Of a stretch of DNA of 64,000 nt, positions 1-10,559 are shown piece by piece. Both the position numbers and the translations under genes were made by a program. Source of the stretch: an uncultured Propionivibrio sp. (lineage in GTDB: Bacteria > Pseudomonadota > Gammaproteobacteria > Burkholderiales > Rhodocyclaceae); NCBI RefSeq assembly GCF_963666255.1, contig NZ_OY762656.1:558001-622000 (forward strand), given 5' to 3'. Each line of letters begins with the position of its first letter. The first letter of the stretch is position 1. The notes below the pieces were generated by a model. It saw only the letters and a list, made by a program, of their open reading frames with translations. It was not told the origin of the DNA and ran no database searches.

Positions 1-3000
1 ATCCGGTCGGTACTCAGCCCGTTCTGGATTTGTTCTGTCGTCAGCGCCGCGACTTGTGCCGTCCTGAGCGCCACCACATCGACCGTCCCAAGCGAGCTGA
101 CCTGTTCGGTCGTCAGCGCCCGGACTTGCGCCGTCGTCAGCGCAGCGATCTGCGCAGTGCCGAAGGCCGCCAGTTGGTCGGTGCTCAAGCCGTCGCGAAC
201 CTGCATCGTCGTCAGCGCGGCGACTTGCGTTGTCTTGAGCGCCGCGACATCCAGCGTCTCGATCGCGGCCACCTGATCGGTCGTCAGCGCCTGAAGCTGG
301 GTATTGGTCAGCGCCTGGATCTGATGCGTCCCCAGGGCAACAATCTGGTCCGAGCTCAGTCCACCGCTGATCTGTTGCGTCGTCAACGCTGCCACTTGCC
401 CTGTCTTGAGGGCCGCCAGATCAACCGTCTCGATCGCGATCGTCTGAGCTGTCGTCAGCGCCTGAATCTGGGCGGAGGAGAACGTCTGGATCTGCTGCGT
501 GCCGAGCGCAACCAGCTGGTCCGTGCGCAGCCCGTTCCGGACCTGCTGCGTCGTCAGCGCCGCCACCTGCGCCGTGCCAAGCGCAACAATCTGGTCGGTA
601 CTCAGGCCGAGGTTGATCTGCGCCGTCGTCAGGGAGGCAATTTGCGTCGTCCTGAGCGCGGCGACATCGGTCGTTTCGATGGCAGCGACCTCGTCCGTCG
701 TCAACGCCATGATCTGCGCCGTGGTCAAGGCCGCCATCTGGGCCATCCCGAGGGCTACGATCTGGTCGGTCGTCAGGCCGGCCTGAACCTGCTGCGTCGT
801 CAGGGCGGCCAGCTGCGCCGTCTTCAGCGCCGCGATGTCCGTTGTCTCGATCGCGGCAACCTGCGCAGAGGTCAGCGCTCTCAGTTGGGCGAAGGTTAGC
901 GCCTGAATCTGGCTGGTCCCCAGAGCAACGATCTGGTCAGTGCCGAGTCCGGTCTGGACTTGCGCAGTGGTCAGCGCCGCGAGCTGCGCCGTCTTCAGTG
1001 CCGCGATATCGGTTGTTTCGATCGCCGCCACCTGGGCCGAGCCCAGGACCGCGATCTGCGCGGTGGTCAAGGCCCGGATCTGATCAGCACTGAGCGCAAG
1101 CACCTGCGCCGTCGACAACCCGTTCCGGACCTGCTGCGTCGTCAGCGCCGCCACCTGCGCCGTGCCAAACGCGACGACCTGGTCGGTACTCAGGCCACGG
1201 TTGATCTGCGCCGTCGTCAGGGAAGCGACTTGCGTCGTCCTGAGCGCGGCAACATCGGTCGTTTCGATGGCTGCGATCTCGTCCGTCGTCAACGCCATGA
1301 TCTGCGCCGTGGTCAGGGCGGCCATCTGGGCGGTCCCGAGAGCGACGATCTGGTCCGTCGTCAGGCCGCTCTGAACCTGCTGTGTCGTCAGGGCGGCGAG
1401 CTGCGCCGTCTTCAGCGCCGCAATATCCGTGGTCTCGATCGCAGCGAGCTGCGCGGAGGTCAATGCTCGCAGTTGGGCGGAGTTCAGCGCCTGAATCTGG
1501 CTGGTCCCCAGAGCGACGATCTGGTCGGTACCAAGTCCGGTCTGGACCTGCGCAGTGGTCAGCGCGGCGACTTGCGCCGTCTTCAGCACCGCGATATCGG
1601 TCGTTTCCATCGCCGCAATTTGAGCCGAACTCAGCGCCTGTAGCTGGGCGCTCGTCAGCGCCTGAATCTGGCCGGTCTCCAAGGCAACCAACTGGTCCGT
1701 TGTCAGGCCGTTGCGCACTTGCTGCGTGCTGAGCGCCACGAGTTGCGCGGTCTTGAGCGCGGTGATGTCCAGCGTTTCGACCGCAGCAAGCTGACGGGTC
1801 GTCAGGGCCGCCATCTGGGCGGTGGTAAGCGACCGGATCTGATCGCTGCTCATCGCAACGATTGCGTCGGTACTGAGTCCGCTCTGGATCTGTTGCGTCG
1901 TCAGCGCTGCCACCTGAACGGAGCTGAGCGCGCCCACCTGATCGGTCGTCAGGCCACTTCTGATCTGGGTCGTCGTCAGCGCGATCAGCTGCGCAGTCTT
2001 CAGCGCCGCGATATCGTCCGTTTCGATCGCCGCCACCTGTACGGTCGTCAGCGCCCTGATCTGAGCCGAGGTCAACGCCCGTATCTGGTCCGATCCCAAA
2101 ACGACGATCTGGCTGCTGCTCAATCCGCCTTGAACCTGCTGCGTCGTCAACGCGGCGACCTGCGCCGTCTTCAGCGCCGCAATGTCGTCCGTCTCGATTG
2201 CCGCCACCTGGGCCGTGCCCAGAACAGCAATCTGCGCGGTGGTCAAGGCTCTGATCTGATCGGTACCAAGCGCGACCACTTGCGCCGTCTTCAGGCCACT
2301 CTGGACCTGTTGTGTCGTCAGTGCTGCGATTTGCGCCGTCGCCAACGCAGCGATCTGATCCGAGCCGAAGCCCTGGCTGATCTGGGTCGTCGTCAGCGCG
2401 ATCAGTTGTTCCGTCTTCAGCGCCGCGACGTCGTCCGTCTCGATCGCAGCCACTTGCGCCGTCGTCAGCGCCTTAAGCTGCGCGCTGGTCAGCGCACGGA
2501 CCTGGTCCGTGCCGAGCGCGACCACTTGCGCCGTCGTCAGCCCGCTCTGGACTTGCTGCGTCGTCAGCGCCGCCACCTGCATCGTGCCCAAAAGCGCGAT
2601 CTGCTCGGTGCTCAACCCCAGGTTGATCTGCGCCGTCGTGAGCGCGGCAATTTGCGTTGTCTTGAGCGCCCCGATGTCATCCGTCTCGATAGCGGCAATC
2701 TGGGCTGTCGTCAGGGCCTGAATCTGGGCCGTCGTCAACGCCGCGATCTGCGCAGAAGTGAGCGCAGCCACCTGGTCGGTACCCAGGCCGTTGCGAATTT
2801 GACTGGTCGTCAAAGCAACTACTTGTGTCGTCTTGAGAACAGCAAGGTCAGCCGTTTCGATCGCGGCAACCTGCGCCGTCGTCAATGCCTGCACCTGCAC
2901 CGAATTGAGCACACGAATCTGATCCGAACTCAGCACCTGCACTTGCGTCGAGCTCAGGCTGCTGCTGACTTGCGCCGTCGTCAGCGCCGCAACTTGCACC

Positions 3001-6000
3001 GTTTTGAGCGCGGCAAGGTCGCCGGTTTCGATCGCCGCCACCTGCGCCGTCGTCAGTGCTTTAACCTGGGCCGTGGTCAGTGCCTGAATCTGATCGGATT
3101 CGAGCGCGACCATCTGACCGGTGCTCAGGCCATTCTGGACTTGCCGCGTCGTGAGCGCGGCAACCTGCCCGGTCCCGAGCGCCGCGACCTGATCGGTACT
3201 CAGGCCGCTGGCGATTTGCGTCGTCGTCAGCGCCTGGATCTGGGCCGTCTTGAGCGCCGCCACATCGGCGGTTTCGATCGCAGCGACCTGCGCCGTCGTC
3301 AGCGCCTGAATCTGGGCCGTGGTCAGCGCCCGGATCTGGTCGGAATCGAGCGCCACGACCTGGGCGGTGCTGAGGCCGCCCTGAACCTGTTGCGTCGTCA
3401 GCGCGGCAACTTGCATCGTCTTGAGCGCCGCCACATCGGCCGTTTCGATGGCGGCAACCTGTGCCGTACTCAGCGCTTGGACCTGAATCGTGGTCAGTGC
3501 CTGAATCTGATCGGATTCGAGCGCGACCATCTGACCGGTGCTCAGGCCATTCTGGACTTGCCGCGTCGTGAGCGCGGCAACCTGCACGGTTCCGAGCGCC
3601 GCGACCTGATCGGTACTCAGGCCGCTGGCGATTTGCGTCGTCGTCAGCGCCTGGATCTGGGCCGTCTTGAGCGCCGCCACATCGGCGGTTTCGATCGCAG
3701 CGACCTGCGCCGTCGTCAGCGCCTGAATCTGGGCCGTGGTCAGTGCCCGTATCTGGTCGGAATCGAGCGCCACGACCTGGGCGGTGCTGAGGCCGCCCTG
3801 AACCTGTTGCGTCGTCAGCGCGGCAACTTGCACCGTCTTGAGCGCCGCCACATCGGCCGTTTCGATCGCCGCCACCTGCGCCGTACTCAGCGCTTTGATC
3901 TGCGCCGTCGTCAGTGCCTGAATCTGATCGCTGCCGAGGGCCACTACCTGATCGGTCCTCAGACCGGCCTGAATCTGCTGCGTCGTCAACGCCGACACTT
4001 GCCGGGTATCGAGCGCCGCAACCTGATCGGTACTCAGACCGTTCAGTATCTGAGTCGTCGTCAATGCAAGAATCTGCGATGTCCTGAGCGCGGCAATATC
4101 CGCCGTCTCGATCGCGGCAACCTGCGCCGTGGTCAGCGCCTTGATCTGGGTGCTGGTCAGCGCTCGAACCTGATCGGAACTCAGGGCGAGCACCTGATCG
4201 GTCCTCAGGCCGCTCTGGATCTGCTGCGTCGTCAGTGCTGCCACCAGGGCCGTGCCGAGCGCAGCGACCTGGTCGGTACTCAACCCGCTACGGATCTGCG
4301 CCGTCGTCAGGGCGACGACTTGCGATGTCTTGAGCGCAATGATGTCTTCCGTCAGGATCGCCGCCAGCTGCTCCGTCGTCAGCGCCTGAACCTGGGCTGT
4401 CGTGAGTGCCTGTATCTGACTGGAATTCAGCGAAACAACCTGGGCAGAGCTCAATCCGCTCTGAATCTGGCGTGTCGTCAACGCGGAGACCTGGGTGGTC
4501 TTGAGCGCGCCAAGGTCCCCGGTTTCGATGGCACTCACCTGGATTGTGCTCAACGCGCTGATTTGCGCGGTGGTCAGCGCCCGAATCTGATCGGAACTCA
4601 GCGCAACGATGTCGTCGGTCGTCAGCGCCTGGGTCTGCGCCGTACTGAAGGCCTGGATCTGCCAGGTGCCAAGCGCCGCGACCTGGTCGGTGACCACGCC
4701 GTTCCGGATCTGGTCTGTTGTCAGCGCGGCAATCTGCGCAGTCGTCAACGCAACGATGTCGGTCGTTTCGATGGCGCCGACCTGATCAGTACTCAATGCA
4801 ACGATCTGGGCGGTACTGAGCGACTGAATCTGGCGGGTATTGAGCGCCTCCAGTTGCGCGGTACTCAGACCGCTCCGCACTTGCAGGGTCGTGAGCGCGG
4901 CAATCTGGCTCGTCTTCAACGCGGCAATGTCCGCCGTCTCGATGACGCTGACCTGCGCCGTGGTCAACGCCTGGACATTGGCCGTACTGAATGCCAGAAG
5001 CTGGTCACTGCCAAGCGCGACAACCTGATCGGTCGTGAGGCCACTCCTCACCTGCTGGGTCGTCAACGCGGCGACCTGCATCGTTTTCAAGGAAGCGACG
5101 TCGCCCGTCTCGATGGCCGAGACCTGTGCCGTGGTCAGCGCCCGCACCTGCGCCGTCGTCAGCGCCTGAATCTGGTCGGAGCTCAGCGCCTGGATCTGAT
5201 CAGTGCTCAAGGCGACGATCTGCGTGGTCTTCAGCGCCAGGATCTGGTTCGTTCCGAGCGATTGCAGTTGCTCTGTGGACAGCCCGCTACGAATTTGCTG
5301 CGAAGTCAGCGCCGCAATCTGGGACGTCTTGAGCGCGGCGAGGTCGGCCGTCTCGATCGCAGCAATCTCGGCCGTGGTCAGCGCCGCGACCTGGAGCGAA
5401 CTCAGCGCCAACAACTGGGCCGAACTCAGCGCCACAACCTGGTCGGTACGAAGCCCCTGCAGAACCTGGGCGGTTGAGAGCGCCGCCATCTGCCCGGTAC
5501 CGAAGGCGGCGACCTGATCGGTGGACAGGCCGCTATTGATCTGGCTGGTTGTCAGCGCGGCGATCTGCGCCGTCTTGAGCGCAGCAACATCCGCCGTTTC
5601 GATGGCGGCGACCTGGCTGCTGGTCATGGCCTGAATCTGGAGCGTGGTCAGTGAGCGGATCTGATCGGTCGCCAGCGCCGCCACCTGATCCGTACGCAGA
5701 CCACTGCTGACTTGGGCCGTCGTCATGGCCGCCAGTTGTCCGGTTTTGAGTGCTGCTACTTCGGTCGTCCCAAGTGCCGCGATCTGGGCGGTCGTCAACG
5801 CCTGAATCTGGGCGGTGGTAATCGCCCGCAACTGAGTACTGTCGAGCGCGGCCACCTGCTGCGTTGCCAACCCACTCCCGATCTGGGCACTCGTCATCGC
5901 TGCAATCTGGCTGGTGGTAAGCGCCGCCACCTGAGCGGTGCTCAGCCCTCCGCTTATCTGGAAGGTGCTCAACGACGCCACTTGCCCGGTCTTGAGCGCG

Positions 6001-6899
6001 ACGAGATCCGTTGTTTCGATGGCCGCCACCTGGTCCGTCGTGAACACGCGCAACTGATCGGTCGTCAGCGCCTGGATCTGCCCGGTGACGAGCGCGGCGA
6101 TCTGCGCGGTGCTCAGCCCGGCAGCGATCTGGCCGGTTGTAAGTGCGGCAATCTGGCTCGTCTTGAGTGAGGAAATGTCTGACGTCTCGATCGCCACGAT
6201 CTGAGCGGTGCCAAATGCCTGAATCTGGTCGGTGGACAAGGTCCGCAGCTGTCCTGAGTCGAGCGCTGCAACCTGATCCGTGGTCAGTCCGTTCCTGATC
6301 TGATTCGCCGTCAGCGCCGCCATCTGCTGGGTCGTCAGCACCGCCACCTGCGTCGTGCCGAGGCCGTTTCCTATCTGCGAGCTGGTCAGCGCAGCGATCT
6401 GGGCCGTCTTGAACGCGACGATGTCAGCAGTCTCCATGGCGGCCAGTTGCTGGGTCGCCAAGGCAAGGATCTGAGAGGTCGTCAGCGCCTGGATCTGGTG
6501 GGTCCTGAGCGCGACAATCTGGGCGGTGCTGAAGCCGTTGTTGAGCTGTTCCGACGTCAATGCGGCAATCTGACGCGTACCGAGCGCCACAACCTGATCG
6601 GTACCGAGGCCGTTCAGAATCTGCCCCGTGGTCAGCGCGGCAATCTGCTCGGTCGTCAGCGCGACGAGCTGCGAGGTCGTCAGCGCCGCGATCTGGTCGG
6701 AGCCCAACCCTTGGGACAACTGGCTGGCCGACAACGCTTGCAGGTCAACGATTTCGATCGCACGAATTTGATCGCTGGTCAGGACCGCCAGCTGATCCGT
6801 AGTGAGCGTCTGCATGTCGGCCGTCGACAAAGCGCGAATCTGCGCCGTCGTCAATGCGGCAATTTGCGCTGTCGTGCCAAAAGAGACGGTGGAAGTCAT
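1..6899 (-). CDS. Giant octapeptide-repeat protein (putative surface/secreted adhesin), 3' end beyond window
   Basis: Seen: from an ATG at 6899 the reverse strand stays in one frame to the window edge, giving at least 2,299 codons with no stop reached. I translated about the first 470 residues and sampled the rest. A marker motif (I-E-T-x-D) recurs only at spacings divisible by three, so the phase is kept throughout. The protein is a chain of octapeptides close to A-A-L-T-T-x-Q-I, interrupted by nine-residue variants containing N/G-G-L-S/G-T. Octapeptides group into repeats of 57 and 82 residues. The translated parts are rich in Ala, Leu, Thr and Gln, with few charged or aromatic residues. 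No Sec signal peptide is visible (N-terminus MTSTVSFGTTAQIAAL). Known: similar repeats occur in giant Rhodocyclales proteins annotated as heme utilization/adhesion or RTX-like proteins. Inference: a surface or type I-secreted structural protein whose export signal would be in the missing C-terminus. Function unproven. Confidence 0.85.
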   Translation of the reverse strand, partial: MTSTVSFGTTAQIAALTTAQIRALSTADMQTLTTDQLAVLTSDQIRAIEIVDLQALSASQLSQGLGSDQIAALTTSQLVALTTEQIAALTTGQILNGLGTDQVVALGTRQIAALTSEQLNNGFSTAQIVALRTHQIQALTTSQILALATQQLAAMETADIVAFKTAQIAALTSSQIGNGLGTTQVAVLTTQQMAALTANQIRNGLTTDQVAALDSGQLRTLSTDQIQAFGTAQIVAIETSDISSLKTSQIAALTTGQIAAGLSTAQIAALVTGQIQALTTDQLRVFTTDQVAAIETTDLVALKTGQVASLSTFQISGGLSTAQVAALTTSQIAAMTSAQIGSGLATQQVAALDSTQLRAITTAQIQALTTAQIAALGTTEVAALKTGQLAAMTTAQVSSGLRTDQVAALATDQIRSLTTLQIQAMTSSQVAAIETADVAALKTAQIAALTTSQINSGLSTDQVAAFGTGQMAALSTAQVLQGLRTDQVVALSSAQLLALSSLQVAALTTAEIAAIETADLAALKTSQIAALTSQQIRSGLSTEQLQSLGTNQILALKTTQIVALSTDQIQALSSDQIQALTTAQVRALTTAQVSAIETGDVASLKTMQVAALTTQQVRSGLTTDQVVALGSDQLLAFSTANVQALTTAQVSVIETADIAALKTSQIAALTTLQVRSGLSTAQLEALNTRQIQSLSTAQIVALSTDQVGAIETTDIVALTTAQIAALTTDQIRNGVVTDQVAALGTWQIQAFSTAQTQALTTDDIVALSSDQIRALTTAQISALSTIQVSAIETGDLGALKTTQVSALTTRQIQSGLSSAQVVSLNSSQIQALTTAQVQALTTEQLAAILTEDIIALKTSQVVALTTAQIRSGLSTDQVAALGTALVAALTTQQIQSGLRTDQVLALSSDQVRALTSTQIKALTTAQVAAIETADIAALRTSQILALTTTQILNGLSTDQVAALDTRQVSALTTQQIQAGLRTDQVVALGSDQIQALTTAQIKALSTAQVAAIETADVAALKTVQVAALTTQQVQGGLSTAQVVALDSDQIRALTTAQIQALTTAQVAAIETADVAALKTAQIQALTTTQIASGLSTDQVAALGTVQVAALTTRQVQNGLSTGQMVALESDQIQALTTIQVQALSTAQVAAIETADVAALKTMQVAALTTQQVQGGLSTAQVVALDSDQIRALTTAQIQALTTAQVAAIETADVAALKTAQIQALTTTQIASGLSTDQVAALGTGQVAALTTRQVQNGLSTGQMVALESDQIQALTTAQVKALTTAQVAAIETGDLAALKTVQVAALTTAQVSSSLSSTQVQVLSSDQIRVLNSVQVQALTTAQVAAIETADLAVLKTTQVVALTTSQIRNGLGTDQVAALTSAQIAALTTAQIQALTTAQIAAIETDDIGALKTTQIAALTTAQINLGLSTEQIALLGTMQVAALTTQQVQSGLTTAQVVALGTDQVRALTSAQLKALTTAQVAAIETDDVAALKTEQLIALTTTQISQGFGSDQIAALATAQIAALTTQQVQSGLKTAQVVALGTDQIRALTTAQIAVLGTAQVAAIETDDIAALKTAQVAALTTQQVQGGLSSSQIVVLGSDQIRALTSAQIRALTTVQVAAIETDDIAALKTAQLIALTTTQIRSGLTTDQVGALSSVQVAALTTQQIQSGLSTDAIVAMSSDQIRSLTTAQMAALTTRQLAAVETLDITALKTAQLVALSTQQVRNGLTTDQLVALETGQIQALTSAQLQALSSAQIAAMETTDIAVLKTAQVAALTTAQVQTGLGTDQIVALGTSQIQALNSAQLRALTSAQLAAIETTDIAALKTAQLAALTTQQVQSGLTTDQIVALGTAQMAALTTAQIMALTTDEIAAIETTDVAALRTTQVASLTTAQINRGLSTDQVVAFGTAQVAALTTQQVRNGLSTAQVLALSADQIRALTTAQIAVLGSAQVAAIETTDIAALKTAQLAALTTAQVQTGLGTDQIVALGTSQIQALTFAQLRALTSAQVAAIETTDIAALKTAQLAALTTQQVQAGLTTDQIVALGMAQMAALTTAQIMALTTDEVAAIETTDVAALRTTQIASLTTAQINLGLSTDQIVALGTAQVAALTTQQVRNGLRTDQLVALGTQQIQTFSSAQIQALTTAQTIAIETVDLAALKTGQVAALTTQQISGGLSSDQIVALGTHQIQALTNTQLQALTTDQVAAIETLDVAALKTTQVAALTTMQVRDGLSTDQLAAFGTAQIAALTTAQVRALTTEQVSSLGTVDVVALRTAQVAALTTEQIQNGLSTDR

Positions 6900-7633
6900 G
6901 ATTTCCCCGGTTGTCCACCGTTGATTATAGATAGGCTGACGGACGTCCGCCCTGCGACAGCATTACTTTGGTCGCAATTCGACACGGACATGAAACACTT
7001 ATCGGAAGCTTTCGATAGAACTGAACCGCAACCTTCAAGACGCAAAATGGACGGCGCAACACCGCCGCCGCGAGCCAAAGACACGCCACCCGCGGACAAT
7101 ACCCGACTCGAACTGACGGACGCTTTCAACATTCAATGCTCGCAAGACCCGGTGCTACGGCGAAATTCTTCTCAACGAATTTGCCGGTTCCCTTTTTGCC
7201 GGCATGACGCAATGCGTACACTTTCATATTGCCCTGCTTTGACCCGACGGCAATGCGAAAGTGTGCCCACTTATTCATGTAATTCCCATGTTTAAACGTT
7301 CAGCCAAAGCATCTCCAATGAAAAACAATTGCCATCAGACGCAACAAAACAATGACGTTGAGAACCTCATCGCACACGGCAAACCGAAGCGCTTTGCCGT
7401 GATGAATACCGAAACACCTCCGCATCGGCAAAATTTACCGGTAGCCGGAGGCTGAAATTGCCGGTGACACGAAGTCTTCGGGAAAGCCTATTTGCCGAAA
7501 GCTCGTCTCGGTTGCATTAGTCACATCCAACTGACTTTCCATCAGCGGGAAAGTCGATCTTCACCGGAACTAACGCATTAAACGTGCCACCATGCGGCAC
7601 CCGCTACCGGAAGGAGAAACGCGCAGGGGACGG
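6900..7633. other. Non-coding region rich in TTGCCG/CGGCAA motifs and hairpins
   Basis: 734 bp without a convincing gene between the giant repeat gene and the DedA-family gene; both are on the minus strand. The composition is more AT-rich than the surroundings. TTGCCG or its complement occurs at 7181, 7196, 7377, 7393, 7426, 7458 and 7491. Two of these form a perfect 9-bp stem (7375-7383 with 7393-7401). A second possible stem pairs 7417-7422 with 7446-7451. Short open frames here lack ribosome binding sites and family-like sequence. It may hold the 5' leader and regulatory sites of the giant gene, but this is inference. Confidence 0.5.
6924..6929 (-). promoter_or_regulatory. Candidate -10 box of the giant repeat gene
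   Basis: On the minus strand TATAAT lies 24 bases before the ATG at 6899. It would give a short 5' leader containing a GGGGA ribosome-binding-like sequence just before the ATG. No good -35 box is visible at the usual distance, so an activator or another promoter farther upstream is possible. Confidence 0.35.
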
Positions 7634-8215
7634 CTACGAACCGCCTCCCCCCCGGCCAGTCGGTGTCTTTTTTGTCAGAATCTTGCGCCCCAGCACAAAG
7701 CCGACACCGACGAGGACAATCGCCACCATCACCCCCTCCTCGATTTCCTTGATATCGCCCAACAAGGCCTCGAAGGCGACGCCAAACAAATGACCGATGC
7801 TGACAACGATCAGCGTCCACACGCTCACGCTGAGCAGATTGACGACAGAGAACCGCAGCAACGGCACGCGACTCGTTCCCAGGATGAAAGGTCCTGCAAT
7901 CCGGAGTCCGTACAAGAAGCGGAAAGCGACAATGCAAAGAACGTCATACCGCTCAAGCAGGCCAAGAATGCGCGACTGGTGTTGCAGCAAGCGAGGAAAT
8001 CGCCCGATCAGCCGATTGCCGTAGCGGCGACCGGACACGAAGGCGAGTTGATCTCCCAGTGCAGCGCCGGCGATCGCAACGGCAATGACCGCCGGCCACG
8101 CAAGGAGCCCACGCTGCGCGGCGAAGCCGGCAGCGATCAGGATGATCTCCCCTTCGAACAGGGTGCCGCAAAATATCGCCAGGTAGCCATAAGAGGCCAC
8201 GAACGTCGTAATCAT
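7634..8215 (-). CDS. DedA/VTT-family inner-membrane protein
   Basis: About 193 residues from the ATG at 8215, which is preferred over an upstream GTG at 8278 because the hydrophobic N-terminus ([15 protein letters not shown]) begins there. The protein shows the DedA/SNARE-associated pattern. There is an early hydrophobic helix with an acidic residue ([10 protein letters not shown]), a G-x-x-x-G-D segment, a conserved arginine-rich re-entrant region ([17 protein letters not shown]) and C-terminal membrane helices, ending in a Gly-rich tail. Known: DedA proteins are proton-motive-force-linked membrane proteins, and some act as undecaprenyl-phosphate or phospholipid transporters. The substrate here cannot be read from sequence. 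It is divergent from groES and shares a 342-bp intergenic region with it. Confidence 0.85.
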
Positions 8216-8416
8216 GATGACAGCCCTTGGCAACGAGGAATAATCGGCGCGCCGCATCCCGGGAACATTTCGAAGCACCAGCGAACCCGCCTAGCGCCGG
8301 CAGCGCCGCACGACATTCTACGTCGTCGACGCACTGCGTCTGCCCGAAGACACTCAAAGCGCCTTTCGCGGAGAGCCGGCCTGCCACGCAGCAACAAAAA
8401 AATCGGCGCCCCCGAC

Positions 8417-8445
8417 TTGAAAAACGATGACCTCGCCCCTATTAT
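8417..8445 (+). promoter_or_regulatory. Sigma70-type promoter of groES-groEL
   Basis: TTGAAA (8417-8422) and TATTAT (8440-8445) are separated by exactly 17 bases. Transcription would start about 8451-8453, inside the CIRCE element, and read into groES at 8558. The position over the operator fits HrcA repression of a vegetative promoter. The rest of the 8216-8557 interval shows no gene. Confidence 0.8.
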
Positions 8446-8471
8446 TAGCACTCGTTCGCTTCGAGTGCTAA
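8445..8471 (+). promoter_or_regulatory. CIRCE operator (HrcA binding site)
   Basis: Perfect match to the CIRCE consensus: TTAGCACTC (8445-8453), a nine-base spacer, and GAGTGCTAA (8463-8471). Known: CIRCE is bound by the heat-shock repressor HrcA and regulates groE and dnaK operons. It overlaps the predicted transcription start of groES-groEL, so repression by HrcA with relief on heat shock is expected. Confidence 0.97.
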
Positions 8472-8557
8472 TAACAAAGCTACCGAAGCGCAGTATTACC
8501 GCGGCGAAAGCCGGTCAAGTACGTCGTTACTATTGCTTAAAAACAGGAGAAATCAGC

Positions 8558-8848
8558 ATGAAAATCCGTCCTTTGCATGATCGCGTGATCGTCAAGCGCC
8601 TCGAGGAAGAGCGCAAAACCGCATCCGGCATCGTGATCCCCGACAACGCCGCCGAAAAACCCGACCAAGGGCAGGTGCTGGCAGTCGGTCCGGGCAAGCG
8701 TGACGAAAACGGCAAGGCTGTCGGCATGGACGTCAAGGTTGGCGACCGCGTGCTCTTCGGCAAGTACGCCGGCCAGACCGTCAAGGTCGATGGCGAGGAA
8801 CTGCTCGTCATGCGCGAAGAAGACATCATGGGCGTCGTCGAGGCCTGA
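8558..8848 (+). CDS. groES: Co-chaperonin GroES (Hsp10)
   Basis: 96 residues beginning [14 protein letters not shown], preceded by AGGAG at 8545-8549. The frame is open far upstream, but the homologous protein starts only here. The family pattern is complete: the PLHDRV start, a mobile loop ([12 protein letters not shown], about residues 17-28) that contacts GroEL, a [11 protein letters not shown] segment and a closing [15 protein letters not shown]. GroES caps the GroEL ring in the cytoplasm and drives substrate encapsulation. It is cotranscribed with groEL, 58 bases downstream, under the CIRCE-controlled promoter. Confidence 0.98.
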
Positions 8849-8885
8849 TCGCCTCACCCACAACGCTTACAGATCCACCCATTAA

Positions 8886-10559
<1,674 letters not shown>

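Follow-up and report, generated by a model that had tools for sequence, protein, structure and literature searches.

A giant ALTTAQ repeat protein of Propionivibrio with units of seven and ten predicted helices, and GT41 glycosyltransferase genes as recurrent neighbours of its relatives

Results

Gene A and its repeat code

The window analysed here, a stretch of 64,000 nucleotides from an uncultured Propionivibrio sp. (G000:C2:558001-622000 of a 4.0-Mb genome), begins inside a giant repeat gene, which we call gene A. Extension to the left, proposed in a first-pass annotation of the window as the way to the C-terminus, gave the whole gene of 5,186 codons. Coordinates below are those of the window unless a contig is named.

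3..6899, minus strand: 5' part of gene A, 2,299 N-terminal codons of ALTTAQ repeat, with the frame open to the left edge of the window
6744..6758, minus strand: first marker, I-E-I-V-D, from the motif search
249..263, minus strand: marker I-E-T-L-D, placed at 256 in the first-pass annotation, from the motif search
78-92, minus strand: one more marker beyond 249-263, from the motif search
2667..3866, minus strand: stretch modelled by AlphaFold2 with 16 aligned rows, 400 residues in units of 57-82-57-82-57-57
7592..10559, plus strand: groES/groEL beside gene A and divergent from it (Cpn10 in ORF 7592-8848, groEL at 8907-10559), context only
G000:C2:549339-564899: whole gene A, 5,186 codons and a stop, fetched beyond the window

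A dynamic-programming parse of the whole gene gave 599 repeat units, or helices, of 8 or 9 residues. The spacing of the units was 8 residues in 495 cases and 9 residues in 103, and took no other value. The markers recur mostly every 57 or 82 residues, which correspond to 7 or 10 helices. A strict marker motif gave 30 intervals (15 of 171 bp, 10 of 246, 2 of 417, 2 of 243 and 1 of 321), and each 417-bp interval is a 171 plus a 246 with a degenerate marker between. When both are split and the last 171 is omitted, the result matches exactly the 31 intervals counted previously (16 of 171, 12 of 246, 2 of 243 and 1 of 321 bp), whose marker positions sit 7 bp below ours throughout. The division of 57 and 82 residues into octapeptides and nonapeptides also holds: the 57-residue unit has 7 helices (six octapeptides and one nonapeptide), the 82-residue unit has 10 (eight octapeptides and two nonapeptides), and a 57/82 pair has 17. 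Along the whole gene, the gaps between markers are 7 helices (32 times), 10 (28), 13 (3), 17 (2) and 11 (1).

The unit order had been described as regular but non-periodic. This is correct inside the window, whereas beyond its left edge the order becomes a nearly strict 57/82 alternation. In the half of the gene that encodes the C-terminus (G000:C2:551138-556559), most 417-bp copies share 92-99.5% DNA identity with the next copy, which points to recent amplification or gene conversion. Our octad-run detector found zero runs in window positions 7001-64000 and in seven further stretches of the same genome (control of 114.5 kb in all), as well as in all 51 base-shuffled loci; because it stayed silent there, the octad pattern of gene A is not due to chance. 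Two further ALTTAQ genes were found in the same genome, paralogue B (2,684 residues) and paralogue C (969 residues).

Orthologue in Propionivibrio dicarboxylicus

The orthologue of gene A in P. dicarboxylicus (L054) also adjoins groESL, and its 2,659 codons are truncated by the contig end. The two proteins are 83.7% identical over 2,520 aligned residues, with identity by octad position of 99% at position 6 (Gln) and 62% at position 5. The dS of 0.613 and dN of 0.092 give a dN/dS of about 0.15, and the gene A protein is under purifying selection. The alignment has three gaps, of 57, 82 and 196 residues, which bears out the proposal that the protein grows by whole modules, and apart from these gaps the short and long units follow one another in the same way in both proteins along the aligned part. 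The alignment, the dN/dS and the whole-unit gaps indicate that the unit order is inherited and that the protein is under selection in this pair.

Family identity and predicted fold

Gene A matched the Pfam model ALTTAQ_rpt (PF20080) with 1,724.7 bits over 83 stretches, at a gathering cut-off of 26.4. The octapeptide family had been called little studied and its fold not established; this has to be revised, since Pfam names the family and a solved chain, HeliScrew4, suggests a fold. Elsewhere, ALTTAQ relatives are annotated as "heme utilization" or "ICE nucleation" protein, names that look like misannotation.

Structure prediction over consecutive 57/82 units, a check put forward in the first-pass annotation, yielded a folded model of the six units at 2667..3866 with a mean pLDDT of 96.5 and a pTM of 0.84. 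In this model each octapeptide or nonapeptide folds into a single helix, five to seven residues long. The helices start mostly at the second Thr, so that the first Thr or Ser would be the cap. A second AlphaFold2 model covered the C-terminal part of a relative from P. dicarboxylicus and reached a mean pLDDT of 63.4; its first 98 residues, which are repeats without aligned rows, formed mainly long helices at low confidence, and this counts against the fold. The same octads occur in the solved chain HeliScrew4, and for this reason we weighted the first model above the second. The first model suggests a short-helix fold for the gene A repeats, which is predicted and not proven for the gene A protein, and the gene A product is very probably a helical rod. 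The handedness and exact turn of the screw we infer.

Other assignments were considered and rejected. A beta-solenoid or amyloid-like fold was set aside in view of the all-helical model. TALE-like DNA binding had a single Pfam match, below threshold, in paralogue C (21.9 bits vs 28). Matches to LRR_EndoS, CAAP1, PRTRC_C, Prok_Ub and lanthipeptide models were above their cut-offs but were taken as low-complexity echoes. For anti-phage defence there was no PADLOC match. A viral fold search with the repeat model gave weak matches, among them predicted proteins of uncultured Caudovirales (BFVD A0A6J7X2V1 and A0A6J5QPU1), one of which has 34% identity over 104 columns, and octad proteins may be carried by phages.

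Helix counts along the rod

Helix-level autocorrelation was calculated for 37 parsed proteins of 32 to 599 helices each (three of this genome, two of P. dicarboxylicus (G005) and 32 from the loci of the GT41 scan below), with shuffled octads as the control. The z value exceeded 3 at lags 17, 34, 10, 7, 24 and 27 in 22, 20, 16, 14, 12 and 11 proteins, respectively, and any other lag from 1 to 40 did so in at most six. Lag 16 was above z 3 in five proteins, and lags 8, 9 and 18 in one, two and none. A superhelix of 8.5 helices per turn was rejected, as it would favour lags 8 and 9, where the median z is negative. A cosine fit over 27 proteins in the range 2.05-12 peaked at 3.40 helices per turn (score 43.5 vs 21.3 for the next peak), a value that cannot be distinguished from sequence from its mirror alias 17/12, which lies outside the scanned range. 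At 3.40 helices per turn, 7, 10 and 17 helices make 2.06, 2.94 and 5.00 turns.

The residue period is 139 in gene A, a Riflebacteria genome and an Accumulibacter genome, and 136 in paralogue B, Methylomonas, Thauera and Nitrosomonas; the 17-helix period is common to both groups of lineages. Because this period spans 136 residues in some lineages and 139 in others, it is the helices and not the bases that are conserved. Of the 102 gaps between nonapeptides in gene A, 99 measure 7, 3 or 10 helices; the phase of these nonapeptides has its peak at 3.395. Peaks at 3.395-3.425 (R 0.82-0.95) were found in five of the 12 proteins having ten or more nonapeptides; the other seven are without a 3.4 phase of their nonapeptides, which argues against a universal rule. 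Over the 64 units of gene A, short and long units keep a tighter running balance than in shuffles (P 0.0012); in the first 38 units, ahead of the near-identical copies, the difference is only marginal (P 0.051).

Lag 17 remained below z 3 in 15 of the 37 proteins, against a universal rule, and the autocorrelation is inflated by tandem duplication and shared descent. The counts 7, 10 and 17 might therefore be a mere trace of ancestral tandem duplication and unequal crossing-over, in which any length is possible and no structural rule operates. The near-identical 417-bp copies of gene A fit such a trace. So does the absence of lag 17 (z 0.1) in seven low-duplication proteins, where the peaks are at lags 7 and 16, and so do the different lags of Cupriavidus (15, 24 and 39) and others; the low-duplication proteins also speak against the rule itself. 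Duplication of this kind is harder to reconcile with a 17-helix period kept across lineages at either residue length, with the recurrence of the sums 24, 27 and 34 beside the rarity of lags 8, 9 and 18, or with the whole-unit size of all three indels between the two species. We consider it an unlikely, though not negligible, explanation of the counts, and we lean towards a rule of about 3.4 helices per turn.

C-terminal module and secretion

The first-pass annotation saw no signal peptide and expected secretion to rest on the unseen C-terminus. The first 20 residues of the gene A product contain no Lys or Arg and, judged on residue content, are not signal-peptide-like; the C-terminus, which lies outside the window, carries an FrpC-type calcium module as in some type I substrates. 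Both points are thereby supported. Against the FrpC self-processing module (6sjw), the C-termini of A, B and C gave E values of 1.3e-37 (168 residues), 7.2e-42 and 9.7e-37, and a profile of the relatives' C-termini gave 1.4e-51. The residue preceding the key Pro is T in 13, S in 3 and D in 1 of 17 proteins, and is T, T and S in A, B and C. The scissile residue given for FrpC at the corresponding site is Asp414 (PMC7078468). Since this aspartate is replaced by T or S, self-cleavage is not expected in most of these proteins, A, B and C included. The number of RTX GGxGxD nonapeptides in A, B and C is 0, and an RTX toxin was rejected on this ground.

Type I secretion genes next to gene A were a proposed check of the first-pass annotation; none was recognised in the 9 kb beyond the 3' end of the gene. 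Three HlyD genes in the genome are over the cut-off, the nearest at about 240 kb from gene A, and a set of OEP-SPOR, C39-like ABC and HlyD genes lies about 13 kb from paralogue B. Near the two other HlyD genes are large ORFs (L049:10503-15998 and L050:10623-14999, of which the stretches contain 1,832 and 1,459 codons), possibly other type I substrates.

The FrpC-type module is present in 13 of 39 GT41-linked relatives and absent from 26. Flanking LssB- and HlyD-like genes (E <= 1e-15) were found for 6 of the 13 module-bearing relatives vs 0 of the 26 module-less ones (P 0.0005), a contrast that takes no account of flank length or relatedness; at E 1e-5 one of the 26 (L108) gains a 103-residue ABC match. 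As the module is absent in these 26, their export is not accounted for, which counts against the export model. By annotation, type I genes adjoin the relative in Cereibacter sphaeroides 2.4.1, which has no calcium module, and those in P. asturiensis, where one of three ALTTAQ ORFs has a module-like motif. The calcium module and the transporter are not strictly tied.

The ALTTAQ proteins could instead be cytoplasmic scaffold or storage proteins, or ice- or surface-active proteins, neither secreted nor glycosylated. Such a role would agree with the start of the gene A product, with the 26 module-less relatives that have no LssB- or HlyD-like flank match at E <= 1e-15, and with the name "ICE nucleation protein" used by annotators. 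We found no test behind the annotation names, however, and all three paralogues of this genome have the FrpC-type module; in C. sphaeroides 2.4.1 and P. asturiensis, type I secretion genes lie next to the ALTTAQ genes. A cytoplasmic or ice-active role is improbable. Type I export of the gene A product is fairly likely.

GT41 partner enzyme

Directly 3' of paralogue B is a gene for a 605-residue protein with TPR and GT41 regions (PF13844, 270 bits, cut-off 25). It matches XcOGT with an E value of 5e-106, an OGT chain with 8e-113 and HMW1C-like chains with about 1e-7. The His of SSDFxxHP and the Lys of FNNxxK, which we take to be catalytic in OGT, are present in all four aligned GT41 enzymes. 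Between the secretion set and paralogue B (L046:9495-16999 and L047), genes resembling glycosyltransferases, sugar epimerases and nucleotidyltransferases were identified by eye, and flagellin genes, also named by eye, follow. Gene A has no GT41 gene beside it, the nearest being about 95 kb away, and one of the two GT41 genes of this genome has no ALTTAQ run in its 15-kb stretch, which argues against the pairing.

We scanned for GT41 with four enzymes as queries and one genome per species, which gave 51 loci; six were set aside for too little upstream DNA (L092, L098, L099, L120, L122 and L133). An ALTTAQ ORF lies directly upstream on the same strand in 39 of the 45 informative loci, and the gap to the matched GT41 start is 29-413 bp in 38 of these pairs, L140 being the 39th. 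Six informative loci lack the upstream ORF (L115, where ALTTAQ is 6.7 kb off, L116, L121, L134, L138 and L139). Without the query-supplying genomes (L090, L128 and L137) the pairing is found in 36 of 42. Many contigs (L091, L094, L096, L101, L102, L104, L106 and others) break off within the ALTTAQ gene that immediately precedes GT41, and ALTTAQ genes appear to break draft assemblies.

On plasmids, ALTTAQ was detected in 53 records and GT41 in 100, 60 of which are listed. Among the matches listed for both, the two lie within 10 kb on 25 of 26 plasmids, with 3.5 expected; only the best places enter this comparison, and the 26 are not independent because eleven are C. sphaeroides plasmids. Restricted to replicons above 300 kb, the listed matches give 8 of 9 vs 0.45 expected. 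Pfam confirmed GT41 in three annotated cases. Plasmids from several alphaproteobacteria and from Pseudomonas repeatedly carry the pair; on plasmid pA of the laboratory strain C. sphaeroides 2.4.1 (L147), an ALTTAQ gene annotated "ICE nucleation protein" is divergent to an "O-linked acetylglucosamine transferase" and type I genes. A phylum scan detected PF20080 in at least 28 of 398 genomes, in at least 25 over the cut-off, and among the matches listed 22 of 31 PF20080-positive genomes also have GT41. Of six same-contig cases, two have a GT41 start within about 1 kb of the final octad run, and in the other four GT41 is on the opposite strand at a distance of about 4-5 kb. In family f65, two genomes (G099 and G159) have 44 and 40 GT41 matches, about two per gene, and ALTTAQ genes too.

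Thr and Ser make up 20-34% (median 24.5%) of the 37 parsed proteins. Because these residues occupy helix-cap positions, their abundance has a structural explanation, which weakens it as a mark of glycosylation. NxS/T sequons are not abundant, with 5 in A (5,186 residues), 14 in B and 3 in C.

The GT41 enzymes might rather glycosylate flagellin or other surface proteins, the ALTTAQ gene being a mere neighbour in an island for surface structures. The GT41 of this genome and those of G005, G018 and G027 are indeed near flagellin genes (named by eye). A flagellin motif, however, was found in just 7 of the 51 GT41 loci, against the directly upstream ALTTAQ gene in 39 of 45 and the repeated pairing on alphaproteobacterial and Pseudomonas plasmids, and we regard flagellin or another surface protein as an improbable target. 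Glycosylation of the ALTTAQ family by its GT41 neighbours is probable, and for the gene A product we give it slight preference. The identity of the attached sugar we infer.

Discussion

The original observation of the repeat array was confirmed, and its interpretation was supported in part; the most frequent partner of the family, a GT41 glycosyltransferase, was beyond its view. The reading that we favour by a small measure is a secreted helical rod, a screw of octad helices, glycosylated by GT41 and acting at the surface or in the matrix. Each octapeptide A-L-T-T-x-Q-I/V-x would form one short helix, and the helices would join into a continuous screw. The 57- and 82-residue units, with 7 and 10 helices, would make 2 and 3 turns at about 3.4 helices per turn, and their 17-helix pair 5 turns. 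With the two units mixed, fixed faces of the rod would carry the I-E-T-x-D marker and the nonapeptides' extra residue. This could explain an order that is regular yet not strictly periodic, and the finding that the two species differ by gain or loss of whole units only.

The OGT-like GT41 would glycosylate Thr or Ser at the helix starts in the cytoplasm, ahead of export, as HMW1C does on HMW1. Type I export would follow, and then, where the FrpC-type module is present, its calcium-driven folding outside the cell; the module of gene A is probably not self-cutting, as the scissile aspartate is missing. In the case of gene A, GT41 and the secretion machinery would be supplied by other loci of the genome. 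The stiff rod would assemble outside the cell, with attachment or aggregation as its probable use. The hosts in our scan include Propionivibrio, Accumulibacter, Thauera and Nitrosomonas, which are floc or biofilm formers. We hold the case for an adhesion or matrix role to be evenly balanced.

As a more tentative idea, ALTTAQ proteins could be a bacterial counterpart of mucin rods: helix-counting screws, each of hundreds of six-residue helices, that receive an O-linked sugar from a dedicated cytoplasmic OGT-like enzyme encoded alongside and are exported to the matrix, in which the unit order would be a structural code across phyla and growth would proceed by whole turns. The ALTTAQ and GT41 families are already known. 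In the open-access literature searched, we found neither the helix-counting rule nor the GT41 pairing, and no paper on the ALTTAQ repeat family or HeliScrew; the available part of a paper on Accumulibacter glycoprotein names no such repeat (PMC11320575). For a family that has a name but no explanation, the analysis offers a fold rule that can be tested, a partner enzyme and a likely role, and it proposes ALTTAQ proteins as substrates of bacterial OGT-like GT41 enzymes.

Comparison with known systems

PF20080 shares its repeat with gene A, but as a repeat model of 38 positions it captures neither the 7/10/17-helix order nor the GT41 partner nor the C-terminal module. HeliScrew4 (PDB 9zem), whose name suggests a helical screw, consists of 120 residues of octads such as LTPEQIAA and matches the ALTTAQ repeats with an E value of 7e-13. 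Unlike gene A, it is short and has a proline after the helix-capping Thr or Ser. The likeness was seen in sequence; 9zem is not among the 50 fold-search matches listed for our model. The best natural Foldseek match among those listed was mesothelin (8cx3, 7ued), behind two designed crystal chains (TM-score about 0.1). Mesothelin is described as a right-handed solenoid in which 24 short helices form nine layers, with mixed ARM/HEAT repeats (PMC10035497); its TM-scores to the model are just 0.20-0.39, at 11-14% identity. FrpC has a calcium-loop domain homologous to those of A, B and C, whereas its scissile Asp-Pro bond is absent from them.

BapA of Paracoccus denitrificans is likewise a large repeat protein; its gene lies beside type I secretion genes, and it is needed for biofilm (PMC5588039). 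Its repeats are Asp-Ala dipeptides, unlike the ALTTAQ octads, and the stem "glycos" is absent from the available text of that paper. The HMW1A/HMW1B/HMW1C system of Haemophilus influenzae resembles the ALTTAQ/GT41 pair in combining a giant exported protein with a clustered glycosyltransferase, and HMW1C is reported to glycosylate the HMW1 adhesin in the cytoplasm ahead of export (PMC3983070). The HMW1 system differs in its N-glycosylation at NxS/T and its two-partner secretion, whereas the ALTTAQ partner is OGT-like. HMW1 is the experimental precedent for glycosylation before export by an enzyme of this kind, and BapA shows that a repeat protein of the type I pathway can serve in biofilm.
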